A stretch of 64,000 nucleotides of DNA. Origin: Geitlerinema sp. BBD 1991-9. GTDB lineage: Bacteria; Cyanobacteriota; Cyanobacteriia; Cyanobacteriales; Geitlerinemataceae. The position numbers and the translations under genes were made by a program. The DNA lies in contig LWRO01000006.1 of NCBI GenBank assembly GCA_001657325.1, positions 1 through 64,000 on the forward strand, in the 5' to 3' direction. The notes below the pieces were generated by a model that was not told the DNA's origin, did no database searches, and saw only the letters and a program-made list of their open reading frames with translations. Shown here piece after piece: positions 3,018 to 32,497 of this stretch (its first letter is position 1; every line of letters starts with the position of its first letter).

Positions 3018-3959
3018 ATGAACGATAAATCGTCGATCGATTCTCAAGCCTTAACCCTGACAGCTCGGGGAAATTTAGCCATTGCGATTTTAGGAATTCT
3101 GTTTGCCCTGTTGACTCGATCGAACGCCATTTTGCTCGATGGTGCTTTGTCAATCGTCAACGCCGCCTTTGCGTTTTTGTTATTGCGTCTCGATCGACTG
3201 TCCCAACGTTCCGATCGAGAACGGTTCGCGTTTGGAGACGAGATGTTCGGGCCGATGCTCGAAGTGGGTAAAGGGTCGATCGAGTTAACCTTGCTCGGCT
3301 TTGCGGCGTTGTCCGCCATCGTGACCGTCGTTGCGGGGGGACAGTCCGTTAATTCGGGAATGGCGATCGGCTACGGGGCGCTCGTCGCGGTAGCGGGAAC
3401 GATCCTCGCAGCGCGTCAAGGAAAATCAGCGCAACGCAGCGGTACACCCACTCTCGATCGAGACGCCAAACACTGGTTTAACCACGGGATGACCGGTGCA
3501 GCTCTCGCCGTCGCCTTTATTTTCGCCTTCCTGATGCGCGAAACCGATCTCTCGGAAACCCTGCGCTATCTCGACCCCCTGCTCGTATTGGGGATGATGG
3601 CTGTTTCGATTTCCCATCCCTTGCGAACCGTTCGCGATAACTGGACACAACTGTGGGGACGGACACCGGAACGCGCTTTAGAAACTCGCGCTCGCCGTTT
3701 CCTCGATCGAGCCTTGCGCCTCGTTCCCCATCGAGAATCACGCCTGCGCGTCGGACGACTCGGACAGCAGGTTTACGTGCGTGTCGATCTCGTGATTTCC
3801 CCCGATAACGACCTCACTGACGACGTTCGCGACCACGATCGCGTGCGAAAACTCCTGTTCGATCGACTGCACGAAGGCTTTCCTCACCTCGCCTTGGACG
3901 TGAACTTTACGGCCGATCGGATTTGGATGCAACGGGCGATCGGCGAAGATGAGGGGTAA
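3018..3959 (+). CDS. Cation diffusion facilitator-like transporter
   Basis: A 313-residue membrane protein resembling the cation diffusion facilitator (CDF) family, which exports divalent metals in exchange for protons. Hydrophobic segments are visible around residues 18-60, 90-135, 155-175 and 185-200. A soluble C-terminal domain of about 90 residues follows, as in CDF proteins. The helix-1/2 region contains SNAILLDGALSIVNAAFAF, where CDF proteins carry the SxAxxxDG-type metal motif. The second expected metal motif (HxxxD) may be WFNHGMTG near residue 155. The substrate cannot be read from sequence. It starts with ATG 106 bases after the NFACT gene, and the gap ends in short ATCGTAAATCGTAAAT-type repeats. 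Confidence 0.8.
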   Translation: MNDKSSIDSQALTLTARGNLAIAILGILFALLTRSNAILLDGALSIVNAAFAFLLLRLDRLSQRSDRERFAFGDEMFGPMLEVGKGSIELTLLGFAALSAIVTVVAGGQSVNSGMAIGYGALVAVAGTILAARQGKSAQRSGTPTLDRDAKHWFNHGMTGAALAVAFIFAFLMRETDLSETLRYLDPLLVLGMMAVSISHPLRTVRDNWTQLWGRTPERALETRARRFLDRALRLVPHRESRLRVGRLGQQVYVRVDLVISPDNDLTDDVRDHDRVRKLLFDRLHEGFPHLALDVNFTADRIWMQRAIGEDEG

Positions 3960-4053
3960 ATCCCCTGATGGGTTTCACTAATTTTACGGATTTGATTTCC
4001 GGACAGATCGGTTATGCTCTAGGTGAAAGGGTTGGCCTATCCCCTCAAATGCT

Positions 4054-4605
4054 ATGACCCAACCGAAACTACACGACCTCGCCCGTGAAGGCAACGCCCA
4101 AGCGATTTCTGCGCTGTTGAACCAGTTTTTGAAATCCCAAGGGGTTCGATCGAAAGTTGCCCTCAAAGAGGGATGTTTGCATATTATCTTGGAGTCGGAA
4201 GGCAATGCCCCCGATCGGGCGAGCTGTGTCGAACTCGTGCGAGCCAAGGTGGTTCACTGGGAAATTGAAGGGATCGAGCGCGTGCGCGTGTACGGTCGTA
4301 AAACTGGCGAACTCGCCGCAGCCTGGAATCAAGAATTTGCCGTGGCCGTTGGCGGATATTCCAATCTGTTGTTTTCCCACTCTCGCGGGACGACGGGGAC
4401 GCCGGAGATCGACAACTCTCCCCCCATCTCGCAACCGCCCAAGCCCGCTCGTCCAAAATCGTCGCCGCGTATCTTCGTCGGGATCTTCATTTTTATTGCC
4501 ATCGTCTTCGTCTCGATTGGAGCTTACATCGTCCTGCAAAATTCTTTGGACTCCCCTGACGATACCGAGGGGTTTCAGCCTCGAACCCGTTCCCAACCGA
4601 TCTAG
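4054..4605 (+). CDS. Conserved cyanobacterial membrane-anchored hypothetical protein
   Basis: A 183-residue protein of unknown function. The first 100 residues form a domain seen at the N terminus of many otherwise unrelated cyanobacterial proteins, with pattern LAREGNAQAISALLNQFLKS at the start and VRVYGRKTGELAAAWNQEF at the end. A Pro/Ser-rich linker (about residues 120-145) follows. One transmembrane helix, IFVGIFIFIAIVFVSIGAY, lies near residues 146-166, leaving a short outside or periplasmic tail. It looks like a single-pass anchor for the N-terminal domain. It starts at ATG 94 bases after the transporter gene. No function is proposed. Confidence 0.72.
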   Translation: MTQPKLHDLAREGNAQAISALLNQFLKSQGVRSKVALKEGCLHIILESEGNAPDRASCVELVRAKVVHWEIEGIERVRVYGRKTGELAAAWNQEFAVAVGGYSNLLFSHSRGTTGTPEIDNSPPISQPPKPARPKSSPRIFVGIFIFIAIVFVSIGAYIVLQNSLDSPDDTEGFQPRTRSQPI

Positions 4606-4691
4606 TCGATCGTTCTCTACCGTTTTAAGCGTTGGGGCTTGCTGACAACAAGCCTCGACCGGTTGACCGCATCTAAATCGAGACTTGCCCT

Positions 4692-6113: not shown

Positions 6114-9100
6114 CTACTCCAAATCCAACGTCAACTGCACGCAGTTCTCGGGTAGAGTGAGAATTGCCTCCTCGTCCCAGGGGTCTTCGTAGCGTTTCCG
6201 ACGACGACCCTTCGATCGATCGCGCAGTTCCTGATTGGCTTTATCGATCGCCAACCACTGCTCGAACACCATCCATCGATCGTCTTGCGGGGGTTCGATA
6301 CGATAGACGCGAACGGGCTTCTTGTCGTGACGCTCGCAGCGCAAACACGTCAACCCATAGCCGAGCTTGTCTAAAAACCGTCGTAGAATGACAATCGGCG
6401 TTGAATTTTTCGCCAGTCCGATTCCTGTAATCGTCTTGATATCCGCGCGGTGTTTGAGTGCGATCTCCGCCATCGCCTGTAAATCGAGATCGGTGTTGCG
6501 TAACTCCCGTTGCGGGTTGGCTAACAATGTCGGAAGACCCAAAACTTCGATCGTTCCCACCGTCGCCCCCAATTGCGATCGATTGAAATCGGGTTGGAAA
6601 ATCTGTCCTCGACCTTGACGCACGAGCTTACGAGCCACGCGGAGATCGCGCTCGGCGAGATACTCCCGTCCGATCGTCAAGAAATAATGCAGGCGCAATT
6701 TGTCGTACCATCCCTTATCGTCCCGCTGTACCAATTCCCGGGTGACGGGGACGCGATAGCGCCGATACAGATCGTACTTGCGCAACGCTCGACGATCGGC
6801 AGGGGTTTTCACCAAGGTTTTTTTCAGTTCGCGGTACTCGATGTCGTTCAACGTCGTTGCGTCAGCGATGGTCTGACAATCCGCTTCGTAGTTCTGGCGC
6901 TGGACTTCGGCGATCTGACGTTGCAGCGTTTCTGATGGCGATTCTGCGGCCTTGTTTTTCCCAGTGTTGCGCTTGGAGCGTCGCGTTTTTTTAGCCGGAG
7001 GAATTTCGACGATCTGGTGTCCTTCAGCCGCCAAAGCCGTCACGACTGAATCGCGATATCGAGCCATCGTCGCGTTTAAACGCACGGCCATTTTCGCCCA
7101 ACAGGTCAGAGATTCTGCTTGGAAACCCATTTCGAGATCGCCGAGAGACTCGAAGTCTGACTGTTGTAGCAAACGCACGTTCAATTGCATCAGGCGCTTT
7201 CCGGAAGCCAGCAAGCTCGGAATCGAGGTCGAGCCGTTCCCTACTTTGTTAAAGCCGTACCGAGCCACCCATAAATGGCGGGGGACGTTGTCTCGAACCC
7301 GAGCCATGGCTTGACGAACGCTGTTTTCTGACTGCACCCCTTGGGCGATCGACCAAACGGAGGTGAAACGACCGCGTAGGTCGATGCTAACTCCGGTTTC
7401 GATCGAAGGCGATGCGAACACGACATCGTAATTTTTCAACAGTCGATCGAGCGTCCCCATACAGCGATACGCTGGGTGCGTCGGTTCGGTGACGGATTCG
7501 GCATCGACACGCAAAATCTTCAGATCGGGAAACTGTTTGGAGAAATAGGCTTCGAGCGATCGCGTACTCCAAGGACTCGTCAACTTTTGCGCCGACAGAC
7601 AGACAAAGGGCTTGCCACCGTTGCGAACGTACTCTTCCAAATCCCGAACCATCCGTTTGGGGGTACTTTCGGTGTAGTGGTGAATCTGCCAACCTTCATC
7701 TAGACCCGGTTGCCAATCGTTTTGAACGATAAACGGTGCAGACTTAATCCCCGCCAAAGCCAACAGATAATCGAGGGATGTATCGCTCAAGTCGGCATCG
7801 GCAGCGAACACCTGTCCGGCTTCGTCTATGGTGTTTTGCATGAGGGCTTTGAGCGATCGCAAAACAGCCACGCGATGACTGCGGCAGGTGTCGGAGTTCA
7901 AACCGTGCCACAGCACTTGTTCGACTTCGTCGAGGATAACGACGGCATTCGTCCAATCTTCGGGATCGAATTGAGCTTGGGAGTCTGGGTGTAGGGAGTC
8001 GATACACAAACCGTACCCGATGCCGACTTCTTTCGGATCGCTGAGGTGGCTGATGTAGGGCAGGCCGAACCGCTGACAGAGGGCTTCGACGAGTTGGACG
8101 CGGTGGCCGATGACGAGGACGCGCTGTCCTTTTTCGATCGCTCGCTGGACGACGCGCTGCAAGAATTCAGTTTTACCGGTACCTTTCGGAGATCGAATAC
8201 CGATCAGTGCAGCGGTGTCGGGAATGAGGAGTTCGGGTAAAAACCGCTGCTTGAGGTGTATATCGGGGGTATAGGTCAGACGCGCGAGCGATCGAGCGTG
8301 CCAGGTGTGAAAAGGTAAGGCAGTTTGAAAGGCTCGATCGAGTGCGTCTCGGCCTTGGCTGGCGATCAGGTCGTCAACCCCTTTGCCGTCTTCGATATCC
8401 CAGGTGACGACTTTGACTTCGCAACCCGCTTGTTCGAGGAGATAGCTGGTTTGTCGGACGGCTGCGTTAACGGCTTTGATGGTGTTCGGCTTGCGATCGC
8501 GATCGAAGACGATGTACACGGGACGCTTGGTTTTCGCCAGCATATCGAGTTGGGGAATCAAGCGCGGCTTACCGATGCGGTTGCCCCATTCGTCCCGTTT
8601 GACGCGGTAGCCGCCGTTAATCCCCGGAAGGGCAATGGCTGCATAGCCGGCACTGAGGAGTGCGCCTGCTTTTTTCGCCCCTTCGGTGATACACAAGGGG
8701 ACGGAGTCGTTTTCGAGCAACCACTGCCAAAAGCCAAAGTCCGATCTCGATCGATCGAGATCGGCTTGGGAGAGCGGTACCCCAGCTCGATCGGCAATGG
8801 CTTGCCACAGGTGTGGAGGAACCCGTAACGCGAACAATCCCGTGGCGGTTTTGGGAGGATGTTCGTATTTGATGGTTTTGCAACGTTCGGTTGACGTAAC
8901 CGTGGGTCGATGATTCGTGCGGGGCTGGTTCGGTTTGAAACACCCCCACAAATCGTCTTCTCCCGTTAGGAGATCGACCCCCGAACACCACCAACCTCCT
9001 TCTTCCAAGTGGCGGTAGCGCTCGAGGAGCGAACTCGAGAGCCGACCGTCGTTCCGACGGGGAAGATCGGCAGAATAGAACAAGTAGTCGTAGGGGAGTG

Positions 9101-9179
9101 TCCCGTCGAGAGAAACGACGTTCAAGCGGGTTAACTCCTCATCGACCTGGCTGTTCGACCATTCAACGAGATAATTCAC
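6114..9179 (-). CDS. CyRepA1-family plasmid replication protein (DUF3854)
   Basis: A 1021-residue protein of the cyanobacterial CyRepA1 replication family, known from cyanobacterial plasmids and, in some genomes, the chromosome. Residues 1-120 are family-specific. A DUF3854/Toprim-like primase fold follows at about 120-285, with PLCITEGAKKAGALL, FDRDRK near 225 and GKGVDDLI near 265. An SF-type ATPase comes next, with Walker A GIRSPKGTGKTEF (328-339) and Walker B AVVILDEVEQV (412-422). A basic stretch KKTRRSKRNTGK is near residue 735. Primase plus helicase in one chain suits an initiator. The start ATG at 9179 lies just downstream of a strong inverted repeat. The frame is intact, so it may still be active, although its flanks look chromosomal. 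Confidence 0.88.
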   Translation of the reverse strand: MNYLVEWSNSQVDEELTRLNVVSLDGTLPYDYLFYSADLPRRNDGRLSSSLLERYRHLEEGGWWCSGVDLLTGEDDLWGCFKPNQPRTNHRPTVTSTERCKTIKYEHPPKTATGLFALRVPPHLWQAIADRAGVPLSQADLDRSRSDFGFWQWLLENDSVPLCITEGAKKAGALLSAGYAAIALPGINGGYRVKRDEWGNRIGKPRLIPQLDMLAKTKRPVYIVFDRDRKPNTIKAVNAAVRQTSYLLEQAGCEVKVVTWDIEDGKGVDDLIASQGRDALDRAFQTALPFHTWHARSLARLTYTPDIHLKQRFLPELLIPDTAALIGIRSPKGTGKTEFLQRVVQRAIEKGQRVLVIGHRVQLVEALCQRFGLPYISHLSDPKEVGIGYGLCIDSLHPDSQAQFDPEDWTNAVVILDEVEQVLWHGLNSDTCRSHRVAVLRSLKALMQNTIDEAGQVFAADADLSDTSLDYLLALAGIKSAPFIVQNDWQPGLDEGWQIHHYTESTPKRMVRDLEEYVRNGGKPFVCLSAQKLTSPWSTRSLEAYFSKQFPDLKILRVDAESVTEPTHPAYRCMGTLDRLLKNYDVVFASPSIETGVSIDLRGRFTSVWSIAQGVQSENSVRQAMARVRDNVPRHLWVARYGFNKVGNGSTSIPSLLASGKRLMQLNVRLLQQSDFESLGDLEMGFQAESLTCWAKMAVRLNATMARYRDSVVTALAAEGHQIVEIPPAKKTRRSKRNTGKNKAAESPSETLQRQIAEVQRQNYEADCQTIADATTLNDIEYRELKKTLVKTPADRRALRKYDLYRRYRVPVTRELVQRDDKGWYDKLRLHYFLTIGREYLAERDLRVARKLVRQGRGQIFQPDFNRSQLGATVGTIEVLGLPTLLANPQRELRNTDLDLQAMAEIALKHRADIKTITGIGLAKNSTPIVILRRFLDKLGYGLTCLRCERHDKKPVRVYRIEPPQDDRWMVFEQWLAIDKANQELRDRSKGRRRKRYEDPWDEEAILTLPENCVQLTLDLE

Positions 9180-13776: not shown

Positions 13777-14018
13777 TGAAATTGAATCTTAGAAGTTGTT
13801 TGAAATTTCACAAAATCGACAAACATAAAAAATAAAACTTTTGTATTTTATCGCAATACTTTGTTTGCGGCTCCAGAATTTATAAAAAATTAATAAGATA
13901 ATCCTTGTCTAATATTTTCTTAATTTTATTTATCAATTTTTTTAACTGGATATTAACCTTCGATCGACCGCCAACCCCGTAATGTTGGTTTGGTTCACGT
14001 CAGAACGGTGCGAGCGCC
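13777..14018. other. AT-rich promoter region
   Basis: About 240 bases with no gene. It holds the Pho-box-like pair at 13941-13959 and otherwise only AT-rich sequence. Confidence 0.6.
13941..13959 (+). promoter_or_regulatory. Pho box (SphR/PhoB-type site)
   Basis: Two 8-base half sites, TTTAACTG and ATTAACCT, are separated by exactly three bases (GAT). The known cyanobacterial Pho box is a direct repeat of PyTTAAPyPy(T/A) with 3-base spacing; each half here differs at one end position. The site is 59 bases upstream of the ATG of the multidomain phosphatase, so phosphate-starvation control is a well-supported inference. Confidence 0.72.
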
Positions 14019-17000
14019 ATGAGCATACTGGACTTTTTGAATATCTTCGACCTGGATACTAACACTTTCCTCGACGATCTCCGAGACGAGACCGAAGGTT
14101 CCCCCACACTACCCAACGGAATCGCCTCAGGAGACACCGGCCAAACCAGTACTATCTTGTGGACGCGCAGCACCGAGACAGACTTCGTCGCGATCGAATA
14201 CGCCACGACCCCGGATTTTAGCGAAATTCTCGGCACGCTCTCCACCGAAGTCAGCGACCCCAACCAACCCGTCAAACTCGAACTGAGTGGACTGCAACCG
14301 AACACCGAATACTACTACCGCGTCACCGATGGCGAAGGGAGTTCTCAAATCGGTCGGTTCAAAACCGCAGCCGAAGTCGGAACAGTCGAAGGATTGCGAT
14401 TTGGTGTTTCCGGCGACTGGCGCGGCGAACTCTCCCCCTATCCCGCAATTACCAACGCGGACGAAAAAGACCTCGACTTCTTCGTTCTCCACGGCGACAC
14501 CGTCTACGCCGACTTCCCCTCCCCCGCTCTCAACAAGCCTCAAGCCGAAACCCTCGATGAATTTCGCCTCAAACACGCGGAAGTCTACGGCGAACGCGCT
14601 GGACTTAACACCTGGGGAGAGTTACGCGCCTCGACAAGCGTGTTCGCCACCATCGACGACCACGAAGTTACCAACGACTTCTCCGGCGGCGCACCCGCAT
14701 TTACCGATCCCCTCGGACGCTTTGGAATGGGAAGCGAACTCATCAACGACACGCCTCTCTACGACAACGGGTTGCAAGCGTTCCAAGAGTACAATCCGAT
14801 TCGAGACGAGTTTTACGGTGAAACTGGAGATTCCCGCACCGAAGGCGAACGCAAACTCTACCGTACTCAAACTTACGGGAGCGATGCGGCTGTCTTTATT
14901 CTCGACAGTCGATCGTTCCGCGACCCCGCACTTCCCCAGGCCGATCTCAACGATACGCTCGAAATCCTAGAGTTTCTCGGCGCAAGCTTCGACCCAAGTC
15001 GCACCATGTTAGGACGAGTGCAAGTCGAAGACCTCAAACAGGACTTACTGGCTGCCGAAAATGCAGGTGTCACCTGGAAATTCGTGATGGTTCCCGAACC
15101 GATTCAGAACTTGGGTCTCATCGCAGCAGGCGATCGATTTGAAGGGTACGCCGCCGAACGCACGGAAATCCTGAACTTCATCGATACTAACGATATCGAT
15201 AACGTGGTCTTCGTTGCGGCGGACATCCACGGAACCGTCGTCAACAACTTGACGTATCAACTCGAACCCCTCGGCCAGCAAATTCCGACCAACACCTTTG
15301 AAATCAGCACGGGTTCCGTGGCGTTTGACGCACCTTTCGGACCGACGGTCATCGATCTGGCCGCCGATGTTGGCTTGCTGTCCCCCGAACAGGTGACGTT
15401 CTTTAACAGCCTCCCCCGGGAAGGACAAGATGCGTTTATTGAAGAACTGACCAACGCACAGTTACAATCGCTCGGTTACGATCCGATCGGACTCCAAGGA
15501 TCGCCCATCAACGCCCAACTCCTCCAAGGTGGCTACGTCGCAACGCAAACCTTCGGTTGGACGGAGTTCGAGATCGATCCGAACACCCAGGAACTTCTCG
15601 TGACCACCTACGGCATCGACCCCTACACCGAAGCCGAACTCAACACGAATCCCGAAACCATTCTCGATCGATCGCCTGAAGTTGTTTCTCAATTCTCGGT
15701 TACACCGGAATTCGACACCGCGCGATTCGCCTCCTTCAACGCCTCCCTCAACCGCAACACGGAAGGCCAACTGATCGCCGACCTCTCCACACCCGAAAAT
15801 GCCCAGGCGCAGACGATCGCCGAAATTATCCAACGCAATAGCCCCGATGTCGTCCTCGTCAACGAGTTTGACTTCGATGCGAACGGACAAGCGGCGCAGT
15901 TGTTCCAAGACAACTACCTCTCCGTCAGTCAAAACGGCGCGTCTCCCATCAACTACCCCTATCGCTACGTCGCCCCCTCCAACACCGGAATTGCTTCTGG
16001 CTTTGACTTCGACAACAACGGATCGATCGTCACCACTCCCGGCGAAAACGGCTACGGAAACGATGCGTTCGGTTTTGGAAACTTCCCCGGACAGTTCGGG
16101 ATGGTGTTGTATTCCAAATACCCCATTGAAACTGACGAAATTCGCACCTTCCAAAACTTCCTCTGGAAAGATATGCCGGGTGCGTTACTCCCTGACGACC
16201 CCGACACCCCCGAACCCAACGATTGGTATTCCGAGGAAGAACTCGAAGCGTTCCGCCTGTCGTCCAAGAGTCATTGGGACATTCCCGTCAACATCAACGG
16301 TCAAACGATTCACGTTCTCGCCAGCCATCCCACGCCTCCCGTATTCGACGGGCCCGAAGATCGCAACGGCCGCCGCAACCACGACGAAATTCGCTTCTGG
16401 GCAGATTACGTCACCCCCGATCGAGGCGATTATATTTACGATGACGCAGGAAACACGGGCGGCTTGACTTCAGGCGATCGATTCGTCATCGTGGGCGACC
16501 AAAACGCCGACCCCTTCGACGGCGACAGCACCAACAACGCCATCTCGCAACTGCTAGACAATCCCACCGTCAACACCCGCGTCACACCTGCCAGTATCGG
16601 ATCGATCGATGCAACCAACCGCCAAGGTAGCAACAATCTCACGCAAACTGGAAATCCCGCCTACGACACAGCCGATTTTGGCGAAGCGGAATTTAACGGC
16701 CCCGGTAACGTGCGCGTCGATTACGTCTTGCCCTCAGAAAACCTCGAAATTACCGATGCAGGGGTGTTCTGGCCGACCGCCGACGATCCGCAATTCGGCT
16801 TAGTAGGCGATTTTCCCTTCCCCAGTTCCGACCACCGCCTGGTGTACGCCGATGTCGTCGTTGCGCCGCCTAGCGTAGATGTTCCAACTGTTTCCAGTAT
16901 CGATCGCCTCACCGTCAGCAACATCGACCTCCTCGGTGAAGTCAACTTCCCCACCGGACTCGAGTTCGGCGGTACGGAAGTCGGCGGGTTGTCGGGAATC

Positions 17001-20000
17001 ACCTACGATGCAGAACGGGGACTTTACTACAGCCTCTCCGACGATCGATCTCAAACTAACCCCGCCCGTTACTACACCCTCAACATCGATCTCAGCGACG
17101 GTAGCCTCGACAATAACGACGTGAACTTTATCGGGGTGACAACGCTTCTCGACCGCAACGGCGAACCGTTCCCCGAAAACAGCCTCGACCCCGAAGGCTT
17201 AGCCCTCACCTCCTACGGCACGTTAATTGTCTCCTCGGAAGGCGATGCGAACAACTTAGTCAACCCGTTCGTCCGCGAGTACCGCATCGACGGACAGCAA
17301 CTCGGCGAGTTCAGCGTTCCCGCCAAGTACTTGCCCACCGCCGACAACAGCAACGGCATTCGCAACAACTTAGCGTTTGAAAGCTTGACGCTGACTCCCG
17401 ACGGAAGCCGCCTGTACACAGCAACAGAAAACGCCCTCAACCAAGACGGCCCCGCTGCAACGGTTGAAACGAGCAGTCTGTCGCGCATCCTCGAATACGA
17501 CCTCGCCACGGGACAACCGGCCCGCGAGTTCGTCTACGAAGTCGAAGAAGTTCCCGACGAACCAATTCCCGCCGACGCTTTCAGTACGAACGGTTTAGTG
17601 GAACTGTTAGCCCTCGACAATAACGGAACGTTCCTCGCCCTCGAACGTGCGTTTTCTGTGGGTGTGGGTAACACCGTCAAACTCTACGAAGTCAACAGCC
17701 AAGGCGCACTCGATGTCAGCGGTGAAAACGATTTGTTCTGGGAAGAAGAAGGGATTCCTTTTGAAATCGATCCCCCGGTTCAAAAACGGTTGTTGCTGGA
17801 TTTTGCCGAGATTGGCGTAACGCCGGACAACTTAGAAGGGTTGGCGTTGGGTCCGGTGTTACCGGACGGTCGCCAATCCCTCATCGTCGTCAGCGACAAT
17901 AACTTTAACGAGACGCAATCGACGCAGTTCGTTGCGTTGGCGTTGGAATTAGACAGTATTCCAGCGGCGGTTCCGACGTTGGAAACGGTGGGATTTGTGG
18001 ACGACGAAGACGCGCCGTTTGCTGGAGATTCCGACGATCCGGCGATTTGGGTCAACTCTGATAATCCCGATAACAGCTTAGTCATTGCTACGGCGAAGGA
18101 CGGCGGTTTAGTCACCTTCGACCTCAATGGAAATCTCTTGCAACGGATTCTCCCGGCTGGGTTCGGCGAGATTCGCTATAACAACGTCGATATCGTGTCG
18201 GATTTCGATTTAGGGGAACGAACGGTCGATTTGGCGATCGCTTCTGACCGTGAAAACGACACGCTGGCGATTTGGCGCATCGACGAGAATTCTCGAGAAC
18301 TGGTCGATGTCACCTCACCGAATATCCTCGAAACCATTTTCGGGGTAGACGACGGCGAACAAACGGCTTATGGGTTGACCGCTTACACGGAGGCGGAAAC
18401 AGGAATACCTTATGTGTTCGTCAGCCAAGGCGACGGAAATCTCCTCGCACAGTTGGAGTTGGTGGCCAACGATGAAGGTCAAGTCAGCGCGAATTTGGTG
18501 CGAACGCTTTCGCTTCCCGTTCCAACCGGCGATCCTGAAGATTCGCAATCGGAAGGTTTGGTGGTGGATGTCGATCGAAACGTGCTGTACGTAGCCCTTG
18601 AAGAAGAAGTCGGCTTGCTGAAAACTGATGCGTCGCCGAACGGGAACGGTGAGTTTACGTTGGTTCAGGCGATCGATTCGGGAGACGAAACCCGATCGTT
18701 CGACGAGATCGTCGTGTTTGGCGATAGTCTCTCCGATGTCGGTAATGCTTTTATTGCCAGCAGCGGTGCGAATCCGCCTTCACCTCCCTATTTTGAAGGA
18801 CGTTTCAGCAATGGCGAACTGGTTGTCGAACGCTTGGCCCAAAGCCTGGACTTGGAAGCGTCACTTCCTGTTCTCGCTGGGGGCAACAATTTCGCTGTTG
18901 GGGGAGCAACCACTGGCTTCGGCACGTCCATCCAAGGTGCGCCCAACATCGGCGAACAAATCAACCTATACCTTAACCAAGACAGTCCCGATGCCAGCGA
19001 TTTGGTTTATCTCTACGCCGGAAGCAATAATTTCGTGCAAAGCTCGACACCTGTAGACCCTGCAACGGTCGTCAACGATATTGTCGGTCACATCACCACG
19101 TTAGCTGAGGCCGGGGCGCAAACCTTCATCGTGCCGAATTTGGGAGATTTCGGTCAGTCGCCGTTCGTGCGCTCGATCGGACGTAGTGAAGAAATTAGCA
19201 CGTCGATCGAGAACTTTAACGTCCTCCTCGATACATCGTTAGATGTCTTGGAAAGCGATTTGGGTGTTGACATTATCGAGTTAGATTTTGCTGGGGTTAT
19301 CGATGCCATTCAGGACAATCCTTCGGCGTTTGGCCTCAGTAACATTCAGGAAGCGGCATTCGATATCACCACGGGAACGGTTGTTGAAAATCCCGATGAA
19401 TATCTATTCTGGGATGATTTCCACCCGTCGGCAGCCATTCAGGAAATCGTGGCTCAAGCGGTTCGGGGAGAACTGGAAGGACTCGTTTCACCGGAATTTT
19501 CACCACTCAAAGCCGATATTGAAGGGTTGTCGATCTACGATGCGGGTGACGGCGAGGGCTACATCCTGGTTTCGAGTCAGGGGGATAGCACGTATGCCGT
19601 GTTCGATCGTGAAGGCGACAATCCTTACCTCGGTAGTTTTGTCGTCGCCGACAACGCCACCATCGACCAAGCCAATGAAAGCGATGGTTTAGATGTCGTC
19701 AGCGCGAATCTCGGCGATAAATACCCTGATGGTTTGTTGGTGGTACAAGACGGGGCTAACGATCCGCAAGCCGTGTTTGAAGATGACGAGGAGTTGGAAA
19801 ACCGCAGTACGAACTTCAAGTTCGTGTCTTGGGACGGTGTCGCCCAGGCGTTAGGCTTGTCTAGTGGAGATGGGTTGACGGGTGATGACGATGAATCTTC
19901 CGAGTCGAACGGAGATGACGAAGACGGATCGTTCGATCGATCGTCTCGCAGTCGCAATCCTATCGCCGAAGATTGGGAAATCGTGGCTACGTTTGACGCG

Positions 20001-20132
20001 CCAACTGTTGCCGGTTCGACTTCAATTTTGGAAGCAGAGTCTTCGACATTAGCGGTGGATGGGTTGGCGGTTGCGCCTGACAACCGGGAAGCGAATTTGT
20101 GGGGAAATCCTTTCGGAAACGATTCGATTTAG
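14019..20132 (+). CDS. Giant multidomain phosphoesterase: PhoD, EEP, phytase-like, beta-propeller phytase with inserted GDSL esterase
   Basis: A 2037-residue protein built from phosphorus-scavenging enzymes. Residues about 28-120 are a PhoD N-terminal domain (LPNGIASGDTGQTSTILWTR). About 125-515 form a PhoD metallophosphatase with FVLHGDTVYADF, IDDHEVTNDF and VAADIHG. About 568-945 form an endonuclease/exonuclease/phosphatase domain (FASFNASLNRN, VLVNEFDFD, IVGDQNADPFDGD, SSDHRLVY). About 955-1312 match the phytase-family esterase-like domain. About 1318-1558 begin a beta-propeller phytase (DSDDPAIWVN). A GDSL hydrolase (FGDSLSDVG, Ser1570; DDFHP, His1802) interrupts it at about 1560-1825. 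The propeller resumes at ADIEGLSIYDAGDGEGYILV. No classical signal peptide or RTX tail is visible, so the export route is unclear. A Pho box lies upstream. Confidence 0.9.
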   Translation: MSILDFLNIFDLDTNTFLDDLRDETEGSPTLPNGIASGDTGQTSTILWTRSTETDFVAIEYATTPDFSEILGTLSTEVSDPNQPVKLELSGLQPNTEYYYRVTDGEGSSQIGRFKTAAEVGTVEGLRFGVSGDWRGELSPYPAITNADEKDLDFFVLHGDTVYADFPSPALNKPQAETLDEFRLKHAEVYGERAGLNTWGELRASTSVFATIDDHEVTNDFSGGAPAFTDPLGRFGMGSELINDTPLYDNGLQAFQEYNPIRDEFYGETGDSRTEGERKLYRTQTYGSDAAVFILDSRSFRDPALPQADLNDTLEILEFLGASFDPSRTMLGRVQVEDLKQDLLAAENAGVTWKFVMVPEPIQNLGLIAAGDRFEGYAAERTEILNFIDTNDIDNVVFVAADIHGTVVNNLTYQLEPLGQQIPTNTFEISTGSVAFDAPFGPTVIDLAADVGLLSPEQVTFFNSLPREGQDAFIEELTNAQLQSLGYDPIGLQGSPINAQLLQGGYVATQTFGWTEFEIDPNTQELLVTTYGIDPYTEAELNTNPETILDRSPEVVSQFSVTPEFDTARFASFNASLNRNTEGQLIADLSTPENAQAQTIAEIIQRNSPDVVLVNEFDFDANGQAAQLFQDNYLSVSQNGASPINYPYRYVAPSNTGIASGFDFDNNGSIVTTPGENGYGNDAFGFGNFPGQFGMVLYSKYPIETDEIRTFQNFLWKDMPGALLPDDPDTPEPNDWYSEEELEAFRLSSKSHWDIPVNINGQTIHVLASHPTPPVFDGPEDRNGRRNHDEIRFWADYVTPDRGDYIYDDAGNTGGLTSGDRFVIVGDQNADPFDGDSTNNAISQLLDNPTVNTRVTPASIGSIDATNRQGSNNLTQTGNPAYDTADFGEAEFNGPGNVRVDYVLPSENLEITDAGVFWPTADDPQFGLVGDFPFPSSDHRLVYADVVVAPPSVDVPTVSSIDRLTVSNIDLLGEVNFPTGLEFGGTEVGGLSGITYDAERGLYYSLSDDRSQTNPARYYTLNIDLSDGSLDNNDVNFIGVTTLLDRNGEPFPENSLDPEGLALTSYGTLIVSSEGDANNLVNPFVREYRIDGQQLGEFSVPAKYLPTADNSNGIRNNLAFESLTLTPDGSRLYTATENALNQDGPAATVETSSLSRILEYDLATGQPAREFVYEVEEVPDEPIPADAFSTNGLVELLALDNNGTFLALERAFSVGVGNTVKLYEVNSQGALDVSGENDLFWEEEGIPFEIDPPVQKRLLLDFAEIGVTPDNLEGLALGPVLPDGRQSLIVVSDNNFNETQSTQFVALALELDSIPAAVPTLETVGFVDDEDAPFAGDSDDPAIWVNSDNPDNSLVIATAKDGGLVTFDLNGNLLQRILPAGFGEIRYNNVDIVSDFDLGERTVDLAIASDRENDTLAIWRIDENSRELVDVTSPNILETIFGVDDGEQTAYGLTAYTEAETGIPYVFVSQGDGNLLAQLELVANDEGQVSANLVRTLSLPVPTGDPEDSQSEGLVVDVDRNVLYVALEEEVGLLKTDASPNGNGEFTLVQAIDSGDETRSFDEIVVFGDSLSDVGNAFIASSGANPPSPPYFEGRFSNGELVVERLAQSLDLEASLPVLAGGNNFAVGGATTGFGTSIQGAPNIGEQINLYLNQDSPDASDLVYLYAGSNNFVQSSTPVDPATVVNDIVGHITTLAEAGAQTFIVPNLGDFGQSPFVRSIGRSEEISTSIENFNVLLDTSLDVLESDLGVDIIELDFAGVIDAIQDNPSAFGLSNIQEAAFDITTGTVVENPDEYLFWDDFHPSAAIQEIVAQAVRGELEGLVSPEFSPLKADIEGLSIYDAGDGEGYILVSSQGDSTYAVFDREGDNPYLGSFVVADNATIDQANESDGLDVVSANLGDKYPDGLLVVQDGANDPQAVFEDDEELENRSTNFKFVSWDGVAQALGLSSGDGLTGDDDESSESNGDDEDGSFDRSSRSRNPIAEDWEIVATFDAPTVAGSTSILEAESSTLAVDGLAVAPDNREANLWGNPFGNDSI

Positions 20133-20197: not shown

Positions 20198-23100
20198 TCA
20201 CAGCGCATAGATTTTGACGATATTCGACAAACCCGCAAACTCAAGCTCGACTCGAGGGAAATCACCGCGATAGACAATCTTTCCGGTACACGTCTCATCT
20301 AAACGAAACTTGAGATAGCTGCCGCTATTTGCACCGATTACAGCTTGTCCTAATTTAACTTTACTACCCTGTCGATCGATCTGAATTTTGAGTTCTTGTC
20401 GGTTAAATCGATCGTCTAAAAACACCTTTAGAGCTTTTTCTTTACGAGTCACTCTGACGTTCATCGTATCGATTTGAAAACTACTTAAAGTTTCGCTGAA
20501 ATGTTGTATCTCAACGTTCGGAGGCAATCCCTCGATCGAAGCGTGTGGTTTAATTTTTTTCTGGATAGGGATTTGAGGTTGCTCTTCGATCGCGATCGGT
20601 GGAATTGGAATCCTTGCGAGATCGAGATGCCATTTTTTAGCTTTTTGCGTGAGTTCTCGATCGAGTTTTTGTGCGCGTTCTGGATTCACCCCTCGCTCGT
20701 ATTCGACTTGTTGGCGTTTCGTCGCCAGCCATCGCTGACGAGCTTCTCGCTGTTCTGCTTCGGGAATTTCTGTATTTTCAGTAAAACGTTCGTAGAATTG
20801 TAATGTGGGAACAAATTCACCGATGCGCTCGAACGTTACACCCACCTCAGATAACGTGAGATGCGATTTCCAATCAGACTGAGCCACGACTGCTTTTAAA
20901 AACGCCACGTACTGCGATCGATGGTTTCTCGCTTCGTCGGGTAATAAGCGAGAACGTGCGATTTTACGAACGATGTCCCACCGAAGCGGATCGACTTCAG
21001 GAACGTTAAACTTGCTTGAGTTAAACTTGTTTAAGCGTTCGATCGCTTCCAGCCAAATTTGAGCTTTCAGAAGATACTCAATTTCGTCCGCATAACGCTG
21101 TTGTTTTTCCAAAGCCCAGCCAATATCTTCTCGTCGATCGAGCCAATTTTTGTGAACGGGTTTTCCAGCCTCTTCCCAGATGTTTAAAATGACCGTATCT
21201 TCTTCAGCCTGTCGCAAATCAGCTAAACCTTCTGGAAATCCCCGAACTTGTGCTTTGGCAAAGTAATAGTCGTGGGTATTCACAAAATTGCAAGCGTTCC
21301 AACAGCTAACTGCTCGGGGCCAAGTTTGACTTTGAAAGAAACACCGACCTGCAATCTCCAAGAGTTTTGGATAGCTTGAAAGTTCCTCAAAAAGTATGCC
21401 TAAATTTTGCCATTGTTCGCGACTGAAGCTTCCCGTTTTTTGGGTCGAACGATCGATGGCTTTAGCATAATCGTCAATCGCTGTTTGCCAAGGTTTACTC
21501 GATCGATGTTTTTTAGCAAGATCGATGTTTTTTTCTAAAAACTGTGTAAATTGCTGTAAACGGCTTGTGGATAGCGGTCGATCGATAGCAAATTCGACGA
21601 TCGATCGTTCGATGAGATGGCCGTTATAGTGAAATGCTTCATACAAACTCTGTAAACGTTGCCAGTGCAAACCTTCCCAAAAACACACCCAAGCCTCATC
21701 GAACCGACGGAGTTCGAGAAATCGATCGCCAGCTTCTTCCCACTTTCCTTCAAACTTCAACGCATAAGCTTCACAAGATTGAGCTTCTGTATTTAACGTC
21801 AAAGAATAATAAAATTCTCGAGCGCGTCGCAACAGGTCAGGATTTTGATGAGTGTGACCGTCTTTTTCCAACTCTCGAGCATTACGATGGCGATCGTCTC
21901 GATCGAGGACTTTTAGGCTTTCACCTAAAACCAAAGTACCAACACGATTGTCGGTATTCCATACCGTCGGATTGTCTGCTTTTTCGATAAACTTTTCGAG
22001 TCGATCGAGATTGGCTAGTTTCCAAAGGGATTCTTCCCCAGTTGGTGAATCGATAATAATTAATTCTTCCGTCGCACGACTTGCGGCAACATAAAGCTTA
22101 TTAAAAAAGTATTCGAGAGCGAGATTGAGCCGAGAATTGTTTGTAATTTCTAATAAATCTAGATTTTGGTAGTGCTTGGAAAACTCATCGCCAAATTTAT
22201 AAACCACGACGAGTGGATATTCACTGCCTTTAATTTGGCTGGCACTAAAAACGTTTTTGGGTAGCTCTCTGTTCAGGGCCTCTGGGAATAGCTGTCTTAA
22301 ATTTTCATCTTGGCATACGTAATCAATTTCGCCGCCCTCATCACAGGGAACGATAAAGATTGGATCGGTATGTAAGTGATTTTTTAAATTTTCAAGAGTT
22401 AGATTTTGTCCAAAAATAAACTTTTGAGGGTCTAAGCTGTGACCGATTTTCCAGGCAATTTGAGGTTTGATTTCTCGAATCCGAAAAATAACGTGTCGCC
22501 AGAGAAGAATTGAGTTAGTAAATTGGACGATTGCAGGACTCGATCGATAGTTTGCCTCGAGTTCTTTGAATGTCATTTTTAAGTTTAGTTGGCCGTCGGG
22601 ATCTAAGCTTGCAATGACTTGTTCGTAAAAAGCAGAACGAATGCTATCCCATCGAAATCCTGTCGGATTTAGAGTTTGAAGTGGATCGCCTGCAAAGGCA
22701 AAGGGTAAACTAAAGACAGGGGAGTATAATTCATACTGAGTTAATGCGGAAAGTCGAACAATAAGCTGTAGTTCGAGTTTAGTAAAATCTTGTGCCTCGT
22801 CGCAAAAAATAGCGCTATGGCTTGCTGAATAGTAGTGTCCTTGTAAAATCGTGCGAACCAGGTCTTGATCGTCCCAATATCCCTGTTCTTCTGTTAGATT
22901 TTTATACCAGCGCCAAACTCCATGATAAATGGCTTGGAATCGATCGACCTCGATCGTTTTTTCTCGACGCGGAATTTCTTGATAAGCACTGGGGGTCATA
23001 TCTTCTAAACTATAACCCTTGATAAAAGCGCGAATGACGTGCCAACATTCGTCTGCTGAGAACTGATTGAAGGCATTTTTATAGAGTTGCTCGAAGCGAT

Positions 23101-24400
23101 AAAATGAAATATGTTTGTCGAGATCGAAGCGGCTGATTTTATAATGAGGTAGCTTGCTTAATAAAAAATCTTGAAAAGGATAAAAAAATGAATCAATTTC
23201 CGAAGCTTGACCATCAAAATCGATAAATTCATGATGATATCTGAGTAGTTTTTTGATTCCATTACGGGCAGTCTCTAAAAGTTTTTGATTATATGTTAAA
23301 AATAGTGGTTTAGGATGTTCGTTGCCGTTTTGATAGTCAAATTGCTCGACGATTTGGAAGTAACGCCGACAGCAATCAGCAAATAAGTAAAATAACATAG
23401 TTGATTTACCACTCCCCGCACGACCATTGATAAAGAGTGGTAATTTACTATTTTGCAAAATGACTTCTTCTTCGCTAGATAGAGCAAAATTAATTGCAAA
23501 ATTTTGCCCAGATTCAACTGTTAAAACTTGCTCAATTTCTCCCCATAATGTCGGATCGCTGACGAGATACTCGGGATAATATTGTCGTGAATAACGCGCG
23601 AGATCGTTGCGAGTCAAGGTTTGAGCTAGTCGATTGATGTGTTTGTCAAACAGTCCGGTGTGACGACCCACGAAATCAATTTCTTCTGGAGATGGTATAG
23701 AATTAAAGGGAGATAATAAAACAATTGAAAATGGTTCTGGACAGTCTTGCAATTCGACTAAACTATATAAAACTGCTTTGTTCGGTGAATCTTGTTTGTA
23801 TTTAATACAGACATTTTGGTAGTCAGTTTCTTGGTCTGCGATCGTTTGGGATGTTGATGCATTTGCAATGCTGTAAATCAGTTCGTGATACGTTTGCCAG
23901 AAATCTTTGACGGCTCGATCTTGAAATCGCTCGATCCAACAGGGTGTTTCATAGACCCCCCATTCCTTAGAACTGTCTTGAAAACTAGGTCGATGAGTCC
24001 AGCTTGTTAAGTCTGGAGGGAGTCTTTTATGCGAAGACACTGAGGATTTTTGTTGGAGAGTTGCGTTAATATCCCTTTCAATTTTTAAGATATCAATTGC
24101 TCGATCGAAATGAGTTCTTCCATAAGTTTCGGGATTATCTAAAAAATTTTCGTAGTCGTTACCGCCCCGCGTTAAAATATCCAAAAAACACAAAACTCGG
24201 ACATTTTGAATTTTGACGATTTTACCAATCAATCGAAAATTTTGAATAGGACGTTTCAAATAGGGGTAAATCCATTCAAAGTAGCTTTGAACGACTGGCA
24301 TTCCTTGATGTTCTATTTCATTTTTGATTGTCATGAGGCGATCGAAGATGTGATGCTCGATCGCATCGTTTTTACAGCTTTCTGTTACGTAAACGAACAT
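20198..24400 (-). CDS. Large SF1 (UvrD/TRANK1-like) helicase with helical-repeat C terminus
   Basis: An SF1 helicase-like protein of about 1400 residues. Numbering from the upstream ATG at 24412: residues 1-300 are a family-specific N-terminal region; Walker A NGRAGSGKSTML is at 329-340, Walker B AIFCDEAQDF at 534-543, motif III AGDPLQT at 574-580, and ANYRSSPAIVQF at about 620-631. SASQIKGSEYPLVVVYKF (723-740) and LYVAASRATEELIIID (773-788) complete the core. Residues about 860-1240 look like TPR-type helical pairs, and the last 100 are beta-rich. The layout recalls eukaryotic TRANK1 and uncharacterised bacterial relatives. The ATG at 24400 has GGAG six bases upstream and is preferred. No partner nuclease gene is adjacent; the function is unknown. 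Confidence 0.82.
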   Translation of the reverse strand: MFVYVTESCKNDAIEHHIFDRLMTIKNEIEHQGMPVVQSYFEWIYPYLKRPIQNFRLIGKIVKIQNVRVLCFLDILTRGGNDYENFLDNPETYGRTHFDRAIDILKIERDINATLQQKSSVSSHKRLPPDLTSWTHRPSFQDSSKEWGVYETPCWIERFQDRAVKDFWQTYHELIYSIANASTSQTIADQETDYQNVCIKYKQDSPNKAVLYSLVELQDCPEPFSIVLLSPFNSIPSPEEIDFVGRHTGLFDKHINRLAQTLTRNDLARYSRQYYPEYLVSDPTLWGEIEQVLTVESGQNFAINFALSSEEEVILQNSKLPLFINGRAGSGKSTMLFYLFADCCRRYFQIVEQFDYQNGNEHPKPLFLTYNQKLLETARNGIKKLLRYHHEFIDFDGQASEIDSFFYPFQDFLLSKLPHYKISRFDLDKHISFYRFEQLYKNAFNQFSADECWHVIRAFIKGYSLEDMTPSAYQEIPRREKTIEVDRFQAIYHGVWRWYKNLTEEQGYWDDQDLVRTILQGHYYSASHSAIFCDEAQDFTKLELQLIVRLSALTQYELYSPVFSLPFAFAGDPLQTLNPTGFRWDSIRSAFYEQVIASLDPDGQLNLKMTFKELEANYRSSPAIVQFTNSILLWRHVIFRIREIKPQIAWKIGHSLDPQKFIFGQNLTLENLKNHLHTDPIFIVPCDEGGEIDYVCQDENLRQLFPEALNRELPKNVFSASQIKGSEYPLVVVYKFGDEFSKHYQNLDLLEITNNSRLNLALEYFFNKLYVAASRATEELIIIDSPTGEESLWKLANLDRLEKFIEKADNPTVWNTDNRVGTLVLGESLKVLDRDDRHRNARELEKDGHTHQNPDLLRRAREFYYSLTLNTEAQSCEAYALKFEGKWEEAGDRFLELRRFDEAWVCFWEGLHWQRLQSLYEAFHYNGHLIERSIVEFAIDRPLSTSRLQQFTQFLEKNIDLAKKHRSSKPWQTAIDDYAKAIDRSTQKTGSFSREQWQNLGILFEELSSYPKLLEIAGRCFFQSQTWPRAVSCWNACNFVNTHDYYFAKAQVRGFPEGLADLRQAEEDTVILNIWEEAGKPVHKNWLDRREDIGWALEKQQRYADEIEYLLKAQIWLEAIERLNKFNSSKFNVPEVDPLRWDIVRKIARSRLLPDEARNHRSQYVAFLKAVVAQSDWKSHLTLSEVGVTFERIGEFVPTLQFYERFTENTEIPEAEQREARQRWLATKRQQVEYERGVNPERAQKLDRELTQKAKKWHLDLARIPIPPIAIEEQPQIPIQKKIKPHASIEGLPPNVEIQHFSETLSSFQIDTMNVRVTRKEKALKVFLDDRFNRQELKIQIDRQGSKVKLGQAVIGANSGSYLKFRLDETCTGKIVYRGDFPRVELEFAGLSNIVKIYAL

Positions 24401-24788
24401 AACTATCTCCATTTCTCACGGTGCAACGTTATCTGGCTAAAGATATTTGACGAAAAGAGTAAAGTCCAAAAATATCTTAAAAGACCCAAAAAATTTTTTG
24501 TTCGATCGAGGGTTATTCGATCGAGTCTAAAAAACGTCATTTGCAGGGTTGACGCAGTTGTCAAATAGCTGCCGAAGATTATCTAAAAAAAATTAATAAG
24601 TACTGGTCTAATTCTATCCTAAATTAATAGATGATACGATTAAATTGCAAAAAAAATTATCAATCGATCGCGGATTCAACATAAATTTGCATTTTTTTAG
24701 AATTCTTTAGTTCTTGTGCGACTTAAATCAACAAAATTTAATATAGAAATGCTACGATCGAGTCTCGTAATCGACTGTCCGAGGTTCG
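24401..24788. other. AT-rich divergent promoter region
   Basis: About 390 bases between divergent genes, rich in A and T tracts. No gene, structured RNA or repeat was recognised. A short forward frame overlapping the helicase start is a shadow. Confidence 0.55.
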
Positions 24789-32046: not shown

Positions 32047-32281
32047 TGAATACCTGTTCGATAGAATTAGTTGATTTGAATTCTCAATGACTCAATATAT
32101 TCTATCGATGTATCAGAAATTATCGTAAATCTTTTATTTTCAATTAAAATCATATCTAACATATTCTCAATCTAGTTAAAATCTCATGCTTTTCTATTTG
32201 TGCTTGACATAAATACTCGGATTTATCCCTAAAAAACAGAATTGTAAATATTTATTATAATGACAACAGAAAAACCAAATA
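32047..32281. other. AT-rich intergenic region
   Basis: About 235 AT-rich bases upstream of the small cysteine-rich gene; it probably contains its promoter, but no definite site was recognised. The miniature element at 32282 follows. Confidence 0.45.
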
Positions 32282-32436: not shown

Positions 32437-32497
32437 ACAAAATAGCTCCGATGTGATTTTCGGAAAAAAAACAACGACACACCACAATCTCACCCTC

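Follow-up and report, generated by a model that had tools for sequence, protein, structure and literature searches.

A GDSL hydrolase domain nested in a loop of a predicted beta-propeller phytase within a cyanobacterial multi-hydrolase chain

The window analyzed here, a stretch of 64,000 nucleotides from Geitlerinema sp. BBD 1991-9 (contig LWRO01000006.1), contains at 14019–20132 (+) a single open reading frame (ORF) with no stop across 2037 codons, in which modules of several hydrolase families follow each other and a GDSL domain stands between two parts of a beta-propeller phytase. The question raised by this locus is whether a whole esterase domain has been nested in the loop of another enzyme with both kept intact, and what such a chain would do. 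The explanation regarded here as likely is a cyanobacterial phosphate-scavenging multi-hydrolase chain, in which the GDSL domain is nested in an intact propeller. The following layout of the ORF was obtained, with residue numbers of the encoded protein:

14019–20132, + strand: whole ORF, multi-hydrolase chain of 2037 residues (open frame and Pfam scan)
14118–14366, + strand: PhoD_N (PF16655), residues 34–116 (Pfam)
14439–15326, + strand: PhoD-like phosphatase (PF09423), residues 141–436 (Pfam; match to 2YEQ, E 1.7e-23)
15768–16835, + strand: EEP nuclease/phosphatase (PF03372), residues 584–939 (Pfam; probed residues conserved among relatives)
16974–17906, + strand: phytase-like module (PF13449), residues 986–1296 (Pfam)
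17925–18686, + strand: beta-propeller phytase, part 1, residues 1303–1556 (NCBIfam, BLAST, phmmer against PDB)
18678–19505, + strand: insert, linkers and GDSL, between the aligned phytase residues 1553 and 1830 (phmmer against PDB phytases)
18708–19463, + strand: GDSL/SGNH hydrolase (PF00657), residues 1564–1815, with Ser1570, Asn1670, Asp1799 and His1802 (Pfam)
19500–19856, + strand: beta-propeller phytase, part 2, residues 1828–1946 (Pfam, phmmer)
19857–20129, + strand: acidic C-terminal tail, residues 1947–2037 (no Pfam match; tails of relatives compared by eye)

An earlier note on this DNA, made from the sequence alone, had placed PhoD, EEP, PF13449, phytase and GDSL modules in one chain, and the domain search agreed, with all five exceeding their Pfam gathering cut-offs: PhoD with 148.2 bits (cut-off 27), EEP with 100.7 (24.5), PF13449 with 311.8 (27.6), Phytase (PF02333) with 220.8 in two stretches (21) and Lipase_GDSL with 80.5 (23.6). 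Since the whole-protein Pfam E-values span 2.5e-22 to 8.5e-93 and the nesting was found at eight further loci, these matches are not due to chance. The best-scoring Pfam phytase stretch, residues 1828–1946, corresponds to profile positions 248–358; the first part was matched at residues 1304–1552 by the NCBIfam phytase model with 158 bits, under the model's own cut-off of 440, and the borders 1303 and 1556 are comparison limits chosen for this part. The earlier label of five phosphoesterase-type modules was corrected to four phosphoesterase-type modules and one GDSL esterase, because GDSL is an ester hydrolase family and the activity of PF13449 is putative. By phmmer, the EEP module had no relative in the PDB up to E 0.1, and the PF13449 module no meaningful PDB match.

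The break in the phytase was located by phmmer comparison with PDB phytases at chain positions 223/227 of the Bacillus enzyme, equivalent to residues 1553/1830 of the window protein, so that the split phytase with a complete GDSL domain between its halves was borne out both by Pfam and by comparison with solved chains. Glu1835, six residues past the end of the insert, aligns to chain position 232 of 1POO, which we equate with Glu260, a residue that binds calcium in the active site of Bacillus phytase; because of this residue, the insert presumably sits on the catalytic face of the propeller. The GDSL domain itself matched Legionella PlaA (E 2.2e-24), the Photobacterium J15 esterase and ChoE in sequence.

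Ser1570, Asp1799 and His1802, named in the earlier note as GDSL residues, were correctly assigned and are invariant in 9/9 nested copies and in 40/40 aligned GDSL rows (the 44-row set described below after a stricter E-value and length filter); Asp1569 and Asn1670 are likewise invariant in the nine nested copies. The window protein holds S1570, G1628, N1670, D1799 and H1802, presumably the Ser, Gly, Asn and DxxH catalytic blocks of GDSL/SGNH hydrolases, and across the 40 rows the S, N, D and H columns are invariant and the G column is variable. On the phytase side, the letters probed in the motifs DDPAIW, NNVD, EG, DIEG and DG do not vary among the nested copies, except for Asn in place of the D of DIEG in one of the nine, and 14 of the 17 columns probed are invariant. 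DDPA-W, NNxD and a C-terminal DG are described as conserved in phytases in the part of PMC4017775 consulted.

These columns bear on the possibility that the GDSL domain is a passenger, folded and non-working, or that its insertion silenced the phytase. Such a reading could draw on block II, where Gly1628 is replaced by Ser in one nested copy (Asp1800 is also variable), and on the three phytase columns that vary, namely E1529 and E1530, which adjoin the invariant E1528, and D1833, which is Asn in one copy. It is nevertheless considered improbable, because the GDSL Ser, Asn, Asp and His and 14/17 phytase columns, all of which we assume to be active-site positions, were kept in 9/9 copies despite GDSL identities of only 44–71%, and because complete folds were predicted. 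Conservation of active-site residues was thus found on both the GDSL and the phytase side.

Residues 1301–1954 were modeled twice with AlphaFold2. The alignment for model 1 had 56 rows, including 11 GDSL-only rows wrongly placed onto the propeller, and the N-terminal half of its GDSL domain was of low confidence because of this misplacement; model 2 was built from a checked alignment of 23 rows. Model 1 reached a mean predicted local distance difference test score (pLDDT) of 80.7 and a predicted template modeling score (pTM) of 0.70, and model 2 a mean pLDDT of 83.7 and a pTM of 0.61, with lower confidence in the propeller than in model 1 and pLDDT values of about 87–97 in most ten-residue blocks of the GDSL domain. 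Superposition on 3AMR, to which the propeller is 36% identical, covered 339 of 352 residues for model 1 (Z 48.3, root-mean-square deviation (rmsd) 2.6, over model residues 9–654) and 335 of 352 for model 2 (Z 43.8, rmsd 2.5), and the top Foldseek match was 1POO (E 3.2e-29, 635 columns). The GDSL part of model 2 (model residues 259–523) matched 5XTU with Z 35.5 across 262 residues and PlaA (8A26) with Z 34.0, within a range of Z 33.7–35.5 to PlaA, ChoE and J15 esterase structures (8A24–8A26, 6UQV, 5XTU). In both models the two phytase parts form one propeller, which is predicted to close as a single unit carrying a separate GDSL fold. A structure in which the halves failed to join would have spoken against the earlier note, and such a structure was not obtained; phmmer, Foldseek and both models instead point to a whole GDSL domain in one loop of one phytase-type propeller. 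The other structural alternative, in which the GDSL segment is a degenerate blade, was ruled out by the phmmer split and by the separate GDSL fold in the models.

Recurrence of the nesting was searched for in 59 relatives, in 388 genomes of the window's order (at most two candidates scored per genome, with misses possible), in 386 genomes of the phylum (at most three candidates per genome, E limit 1e-75) and, by a pattern-based scan, in the genomes of 84,980 species, from which the best 80 loci were taken. With the window counted each time, nested alignments were obtained for 3 of the 59 relatives, 5 of the 388 order genomes and 3 of the 386 phylum genomes; the scan gave 4 among its best 80 loci. 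Nested copies within the order are found in genomes G018, G051, G107 and G166, and further ones in Richelia sp. UBA3308, Mastigocoleus sp. MO_188.B34, Plectonema cf. radiosum LEGE 06105 and Mastigocoleus testarum BC008. Both phytase halves are held by 103 rows (101 distinct, with two duplicate pairs), 9 of them nested and 94 (92 distinct) uninterrupted, and the gap at the loop measures 270–298 residues in the nine nested rows as against −4 to 28 in the uninterrupted ones, whose nearest members include G293, G357 and Phormidesmis priestleyi. The other eight nested GDSL domains are 44–71% identical to that of the window. Because the nesting occurs at eight other loci, it is an inherited design and not the accident of one genome; a quirk of a single genome was ruled out by the nine nested rows among 101 distinct ones.

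The same loci bear on an assembly chimera or a mis-read frame, which the 113-contig draft state of the assembly could suggest. This was given next to no credence, given the single stop-free frame of 2037 codons and the recurrence of the nesting at eight loci elsewhere, of which two lie in the single-contig genomes G051 and G107; an assembly artefact was rejected on these grounds.

Phage records gave no match to residues 1295–2037. In plasmid records, the whole protein had 187 matches and residues 1295–1947 had 45, in neither case with any across more than 80% of the length, and megablast with the gene returned none. Two further relatives lie in the genome of the window: a GDSL protein that is not part of a phytase and shares 60% identity with the nested domain (L149, G000:C58:82850-83677 (+)), and a broken relative of the PhoD module with 42% identity to residues 1–206 (L004/L151, G000:C40:15054-15653 (-)), interrupted by five TGA, one TAG and one TAA internal stops.

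The history of the insertion was approached with trees and loop sequences. In a GDSL tree of 44 rows, the nine nested domains, four non-nested ones and a PhoD–GDSL protein of G002 fell into one supported set (97/94). The phytase trees were built from 50 and from 24 of the 103 rows; of the mostly non-cyanobacterial loci L072–L138, six entered the former and none the latter. With 50 rows, a single clade of the nine nested phytases was rejected (approximately unbiased test, p-AU 1.85e-43), and the uninterrupted phytases of G293 and G357 were sister to the window and G018 copies in both trees (95/74 with 50 rows, 82/78 with 24 rows). Both results favor a history in which related GDSL domains entered a permissive loop several times independently, as opposed to a single insertion followed by loss and transfer. 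So does the occurrence in 4/94 uninterrupted rows (G138, G030 and two Pseudomonas rows, the last three without a trace of an insert) of the Pro that the nested rows have on the right-hand side, four residues ahead of the D of DIEG. On the other side, a single clade of the eight remaining nested copies was not rejected when G166 was left out of the 24-row tree (p-AU 0.255), from which we infer that the rejection is chiefly due to the G166 propeller sitting elsewhere; the right-hand Pro and a Leu are common to 9/9 nested copies, several share DLxQxPF-like linkers on the left, and G138 carries linker-like sequence without a GDSL domain. Repeated insertion is regarded as a possible history that falls somewhat short of probable.

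The chain of G138 (L158:6640-12366) lacks a GDSL domain and has in its loop DLTQV and TDTSPVVPDIEGL, which by eye resemble the left and right linkers of the nested copies; this loop is about 11–17 residues longer than that of most other uninterrupted cyanobacterial rows (13 vs −4 to 2) and may be the footprint of a GDSL loss, or a pre-insertion state. In G150 (L147:4368-6137), a frame of 590 residues matches, in order, four pieces of the G051 chain, namely residues 4–26, the start region of the phytase-like module, the linker with GDSL, and the RTX-like tail, with rough piece borders since the hits overlap. G002 (L145:5528-8314) has a PhoD module (84% over 568 residues) fused to GDSL, and in six genomes of the same family a short stretch like the start of the PhoD module is followed by GDSL; the one such frame that was scanned (L146, G011, 3393-4688) gave PhoD_N with 25.1 bits, under the cut-off of 30. 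The proteins of G150, G002 and the same-family genomes are read as deletions from nested or window-type ancestors, the opposite direction also being possible.

A bolder reading would join these observations: the GDSL domain would be a transplantable unit, which entered one catalytic-face loop of the phytase via conserved linkers, moved between propeller backbones (G166 versus the rest) and was kept after deletion of the propeller (G150, G002 and those proteins of the same family in which GDSL follows N-terminal PhoD sequence), and the nested active sites would form one bifunctional lipid-to-phosphate enzyme, in which deacylation supplies substrate for the cleavage of phosphoesters at the rim of the propeller. 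Taken as a whole, this reading is speculative and rather unlikely.

Pfam scans of six nested relatives (L059, L061, L062, L139, L140 and L142) found EEP, PF13449, phytase and GDSL in 6/6, and PhoD on the C-terminal side in L059, L061, L140 and L142, as opposed to its N-terminal place in the window protein. Uninterrupted chains carry SurE, Phosphodiest, GDPD (as in L155), Metallophos and choice_anch_I modules. Because relatives mix SurE, Phosphodiest, GDPD, Metallophos, RTX and DUF4114 with the common modules, the window protein is assigned, by its sequence, to a modular class of multi-hydrolase chains. The nearest comparisons among these are L065 of Oscillatoria sp. CS-180 (EEP, PF13449, phytase, PhoD) and L063 of Phormidesmis priestleyi (Phosphodiest, PF13449, phytase, PhoD, RTX), which have homologous modules, with PhoD toward the C-terminus; unlike the window protein, both have an intact phytase loop and no GDSL. 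Separately, L059, L066, L069 and L157 have two SurE stretches after the PF13449 module and ahead of the phytase, perhaps a second insertion close to where the phytase starts; in L059, L066 and L069 the first 31–33 residues of the phytase segment are without a BLAST match. A frame of G107 (L141:8660-11482) opens with an apparent EEP C-terminus joined straight to the phytase, with no PF13449.

Set against solved enzymes, the window phytase shares the motifs and, as predicted, the propeller fold of Bacillus beta-propeller phytase (1POO, 3AMR), which is an uninterrupted single-domain enzyme, whereas the window phytase is split by GDSL and shares its chain with further modules. Legionella PlaA, Pseudomonas ChoE and the Photobacterium J15 esterase resemble the nested GDSL in sequence and predicted fold; their chains are the hydrolase itself (lengths 282–328), whereas the window domain is nested in a propeller loop. 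Nodularia nsp7010 and nsp6490 (PMC9846622, PMC3610870) fall in the same annotation classes as the window modules; this likeness, like the link to the atypical alkaline phosphatase of the Synechococcus PhoA type, is one of annotation. According to the parts of PMC9846622 consulted, P-limited Nodularia induces an "atypical alkaline phosphatase (esterase-like activity of phytase family protein)" as well as a GDPD protein that contains a phytase domain, with log2 changes up to 5.53 and 5.45 (see also PMC3610870); the word GDSL was absent from the main text of PMC9846622. The putative RTX proteins counted in a review include, in the portion consulted, four predicted phytases as well as five phosphatases (PMC3034196). 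In the open-license literature, no paper on a combination of phytase and GDSL in cyanobacteria was found, which is not proof of novelty. Every module comes from a known family, and the chain is not a new enzyme class but a variant of known cyanobacterial multi-domain phosphatases; what is real is the nesting of one domain in another, which recurs and is well preserved, in proteins of a known kind.

For the phosphate-scavenging chain considered likely above, the following mechanism is proposed on the basis of the functions of the PlaA-like and PhoD enzyme families and of the GDPD modules in the uninterrupted chain L155. The chain would most likely strip phosphate from several organic sources, with the PhoD and EEP modules cleaving phosphomono- and diesters and the propeller cleaving phytate-type esters. 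The GDSL domain, a PlaA/ChoE-like acyl hydrolase inserted in what would be one inter-blade loop, six residues before the conserved Glu and with the propeller unbroken, would probably deacylate (lyso)phospholipids or other acyl esters and thereby expose phosphate to neighboring phosphoesterase or phosphodiesterase modules. At sequence level, module content, insertion point, retained catalytic residues and recurrence at nine loci are established; the substrates, with phytate, nucleic acids and lipids as those that the chain would hydrolyze, and the coupling between modules are inferred. Support for the EEP module is given by the set Asn/Glu/His/Asp/Asn/Asp/Asp-His, presumably characteristic of the EEP superfamily, of which 6/8 columns are invariant in 11/11 rows and the other two, N574 and E616, are kept in 10/11 rows, the eleventh row being gapped.

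A candidate regulatory element lies ahead of the ORF:

13908–13959, + strand: weak Pho-box-like array, five units of 8 bases repeated every 11 bases, 31/40 consensus positions

Its five-unit score is the joint top score in the 64 kb window, tied with 32133, and was reached by 9 of 2000 shuffles when the upstream stretch was randomized with a first-order Markov model, the number of units having been picked after the array had been seen. The tied array (32133–32184, +, equally 31/40) lies ahead of an ORF at 32453. The two-unit pattern was not above chance, with 4 occurrences in the window (3.18 expected) and 13 in L139 (14.3 expected).

Several findings, in addition to the variable GDSL and phytase columns given above, weigh against the scavenging chain as proposed. 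The pTM values of 0.70 and 0.61 are too low to fix the placement of the GDSL fold relative to the propeller. The three- and two-unit scores of the Pho-box-like array are unremarkable, being reached by 237/2000 and 244/2000 shuffles. In the first motif of the PhoD module (residues 131–134, 14409–14420), Asp133 aligns with a Cys of B. subtilis PhoD (2YEQ), which we take to be a metal ligand; the position is Asp in 24/25 aligned modules and Asn in 1/25. By this first-motif Cys the module is not of the classical B. subtilis type and is classed as PhoD-like only, and the exchange suggests a different metal site in the PhoD modules of these chains. Finally, no signal peptide was seen at the N-terminus of the window protein, as judged by eye without a predictor, and its sequence gave no Pfam match to RTX or DUF4114 at E ≤ 1 and no GGxGxD-like repeats.

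Secretion, as claimed earlier for a single phosphate-stripping enzyme, was therefore not borne out for the window copy, for want of both a visible signal peptide and an RTX or DUF4114 match; the scavenging role in the same claim fits the P-limitation induction reported in the consulted parts of PMC9846622 and the modest Pho-box-like array. Among nested relatives, L059 and L061 carry DUF4114 above cut-off and L140 has an RTX match that stays under it, and neither is found in L062, L139 and L142. By motif count, the tails of four nested copies (L060, L062, L140 and L141) contain 4–5 GGxGxD-like repeats, and those of the remaining five contain none. The genome has an HlyB-type ATPase (742 bits, cut-off 726). 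Export of the relatives with RTX-like or DUF4114 tails is plausible from their sequences; export of the window copy is a guess by analogy, because it is based on the tails of relatives and its own tail is without a Pfam match. The window ORF, L139, L149, L145 and L146 have short tails without RTX-like repeats, several ending on hydrophobic residues (by eye), which possibly are an export signal.

The locus offers a clean natural case in which one enzyme carries an entire second enzyme domain in a loop, near the host's active site in sequence. Since relatives with an uninterrupted loop exist, along with one possible footprint and several proteins that look like collapsed derivatives, the history of this insertion is readable and testable. 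With this locus an acyl hydrolase joins the modules of cyanobacterial phosphate-scavenging chains, and whether such chains target phospholipid phosphate can be tested on a concrete case.

Two further proteins in the window were recorded: one of 1404 residues at 20198–24412 (-), which is convergent with the multi-hydrolase gene and has only weak, sub-cut-off UvrD-like Pfam matches, and one of 1021 residues with DUF3854 at 6114–9179 (-).

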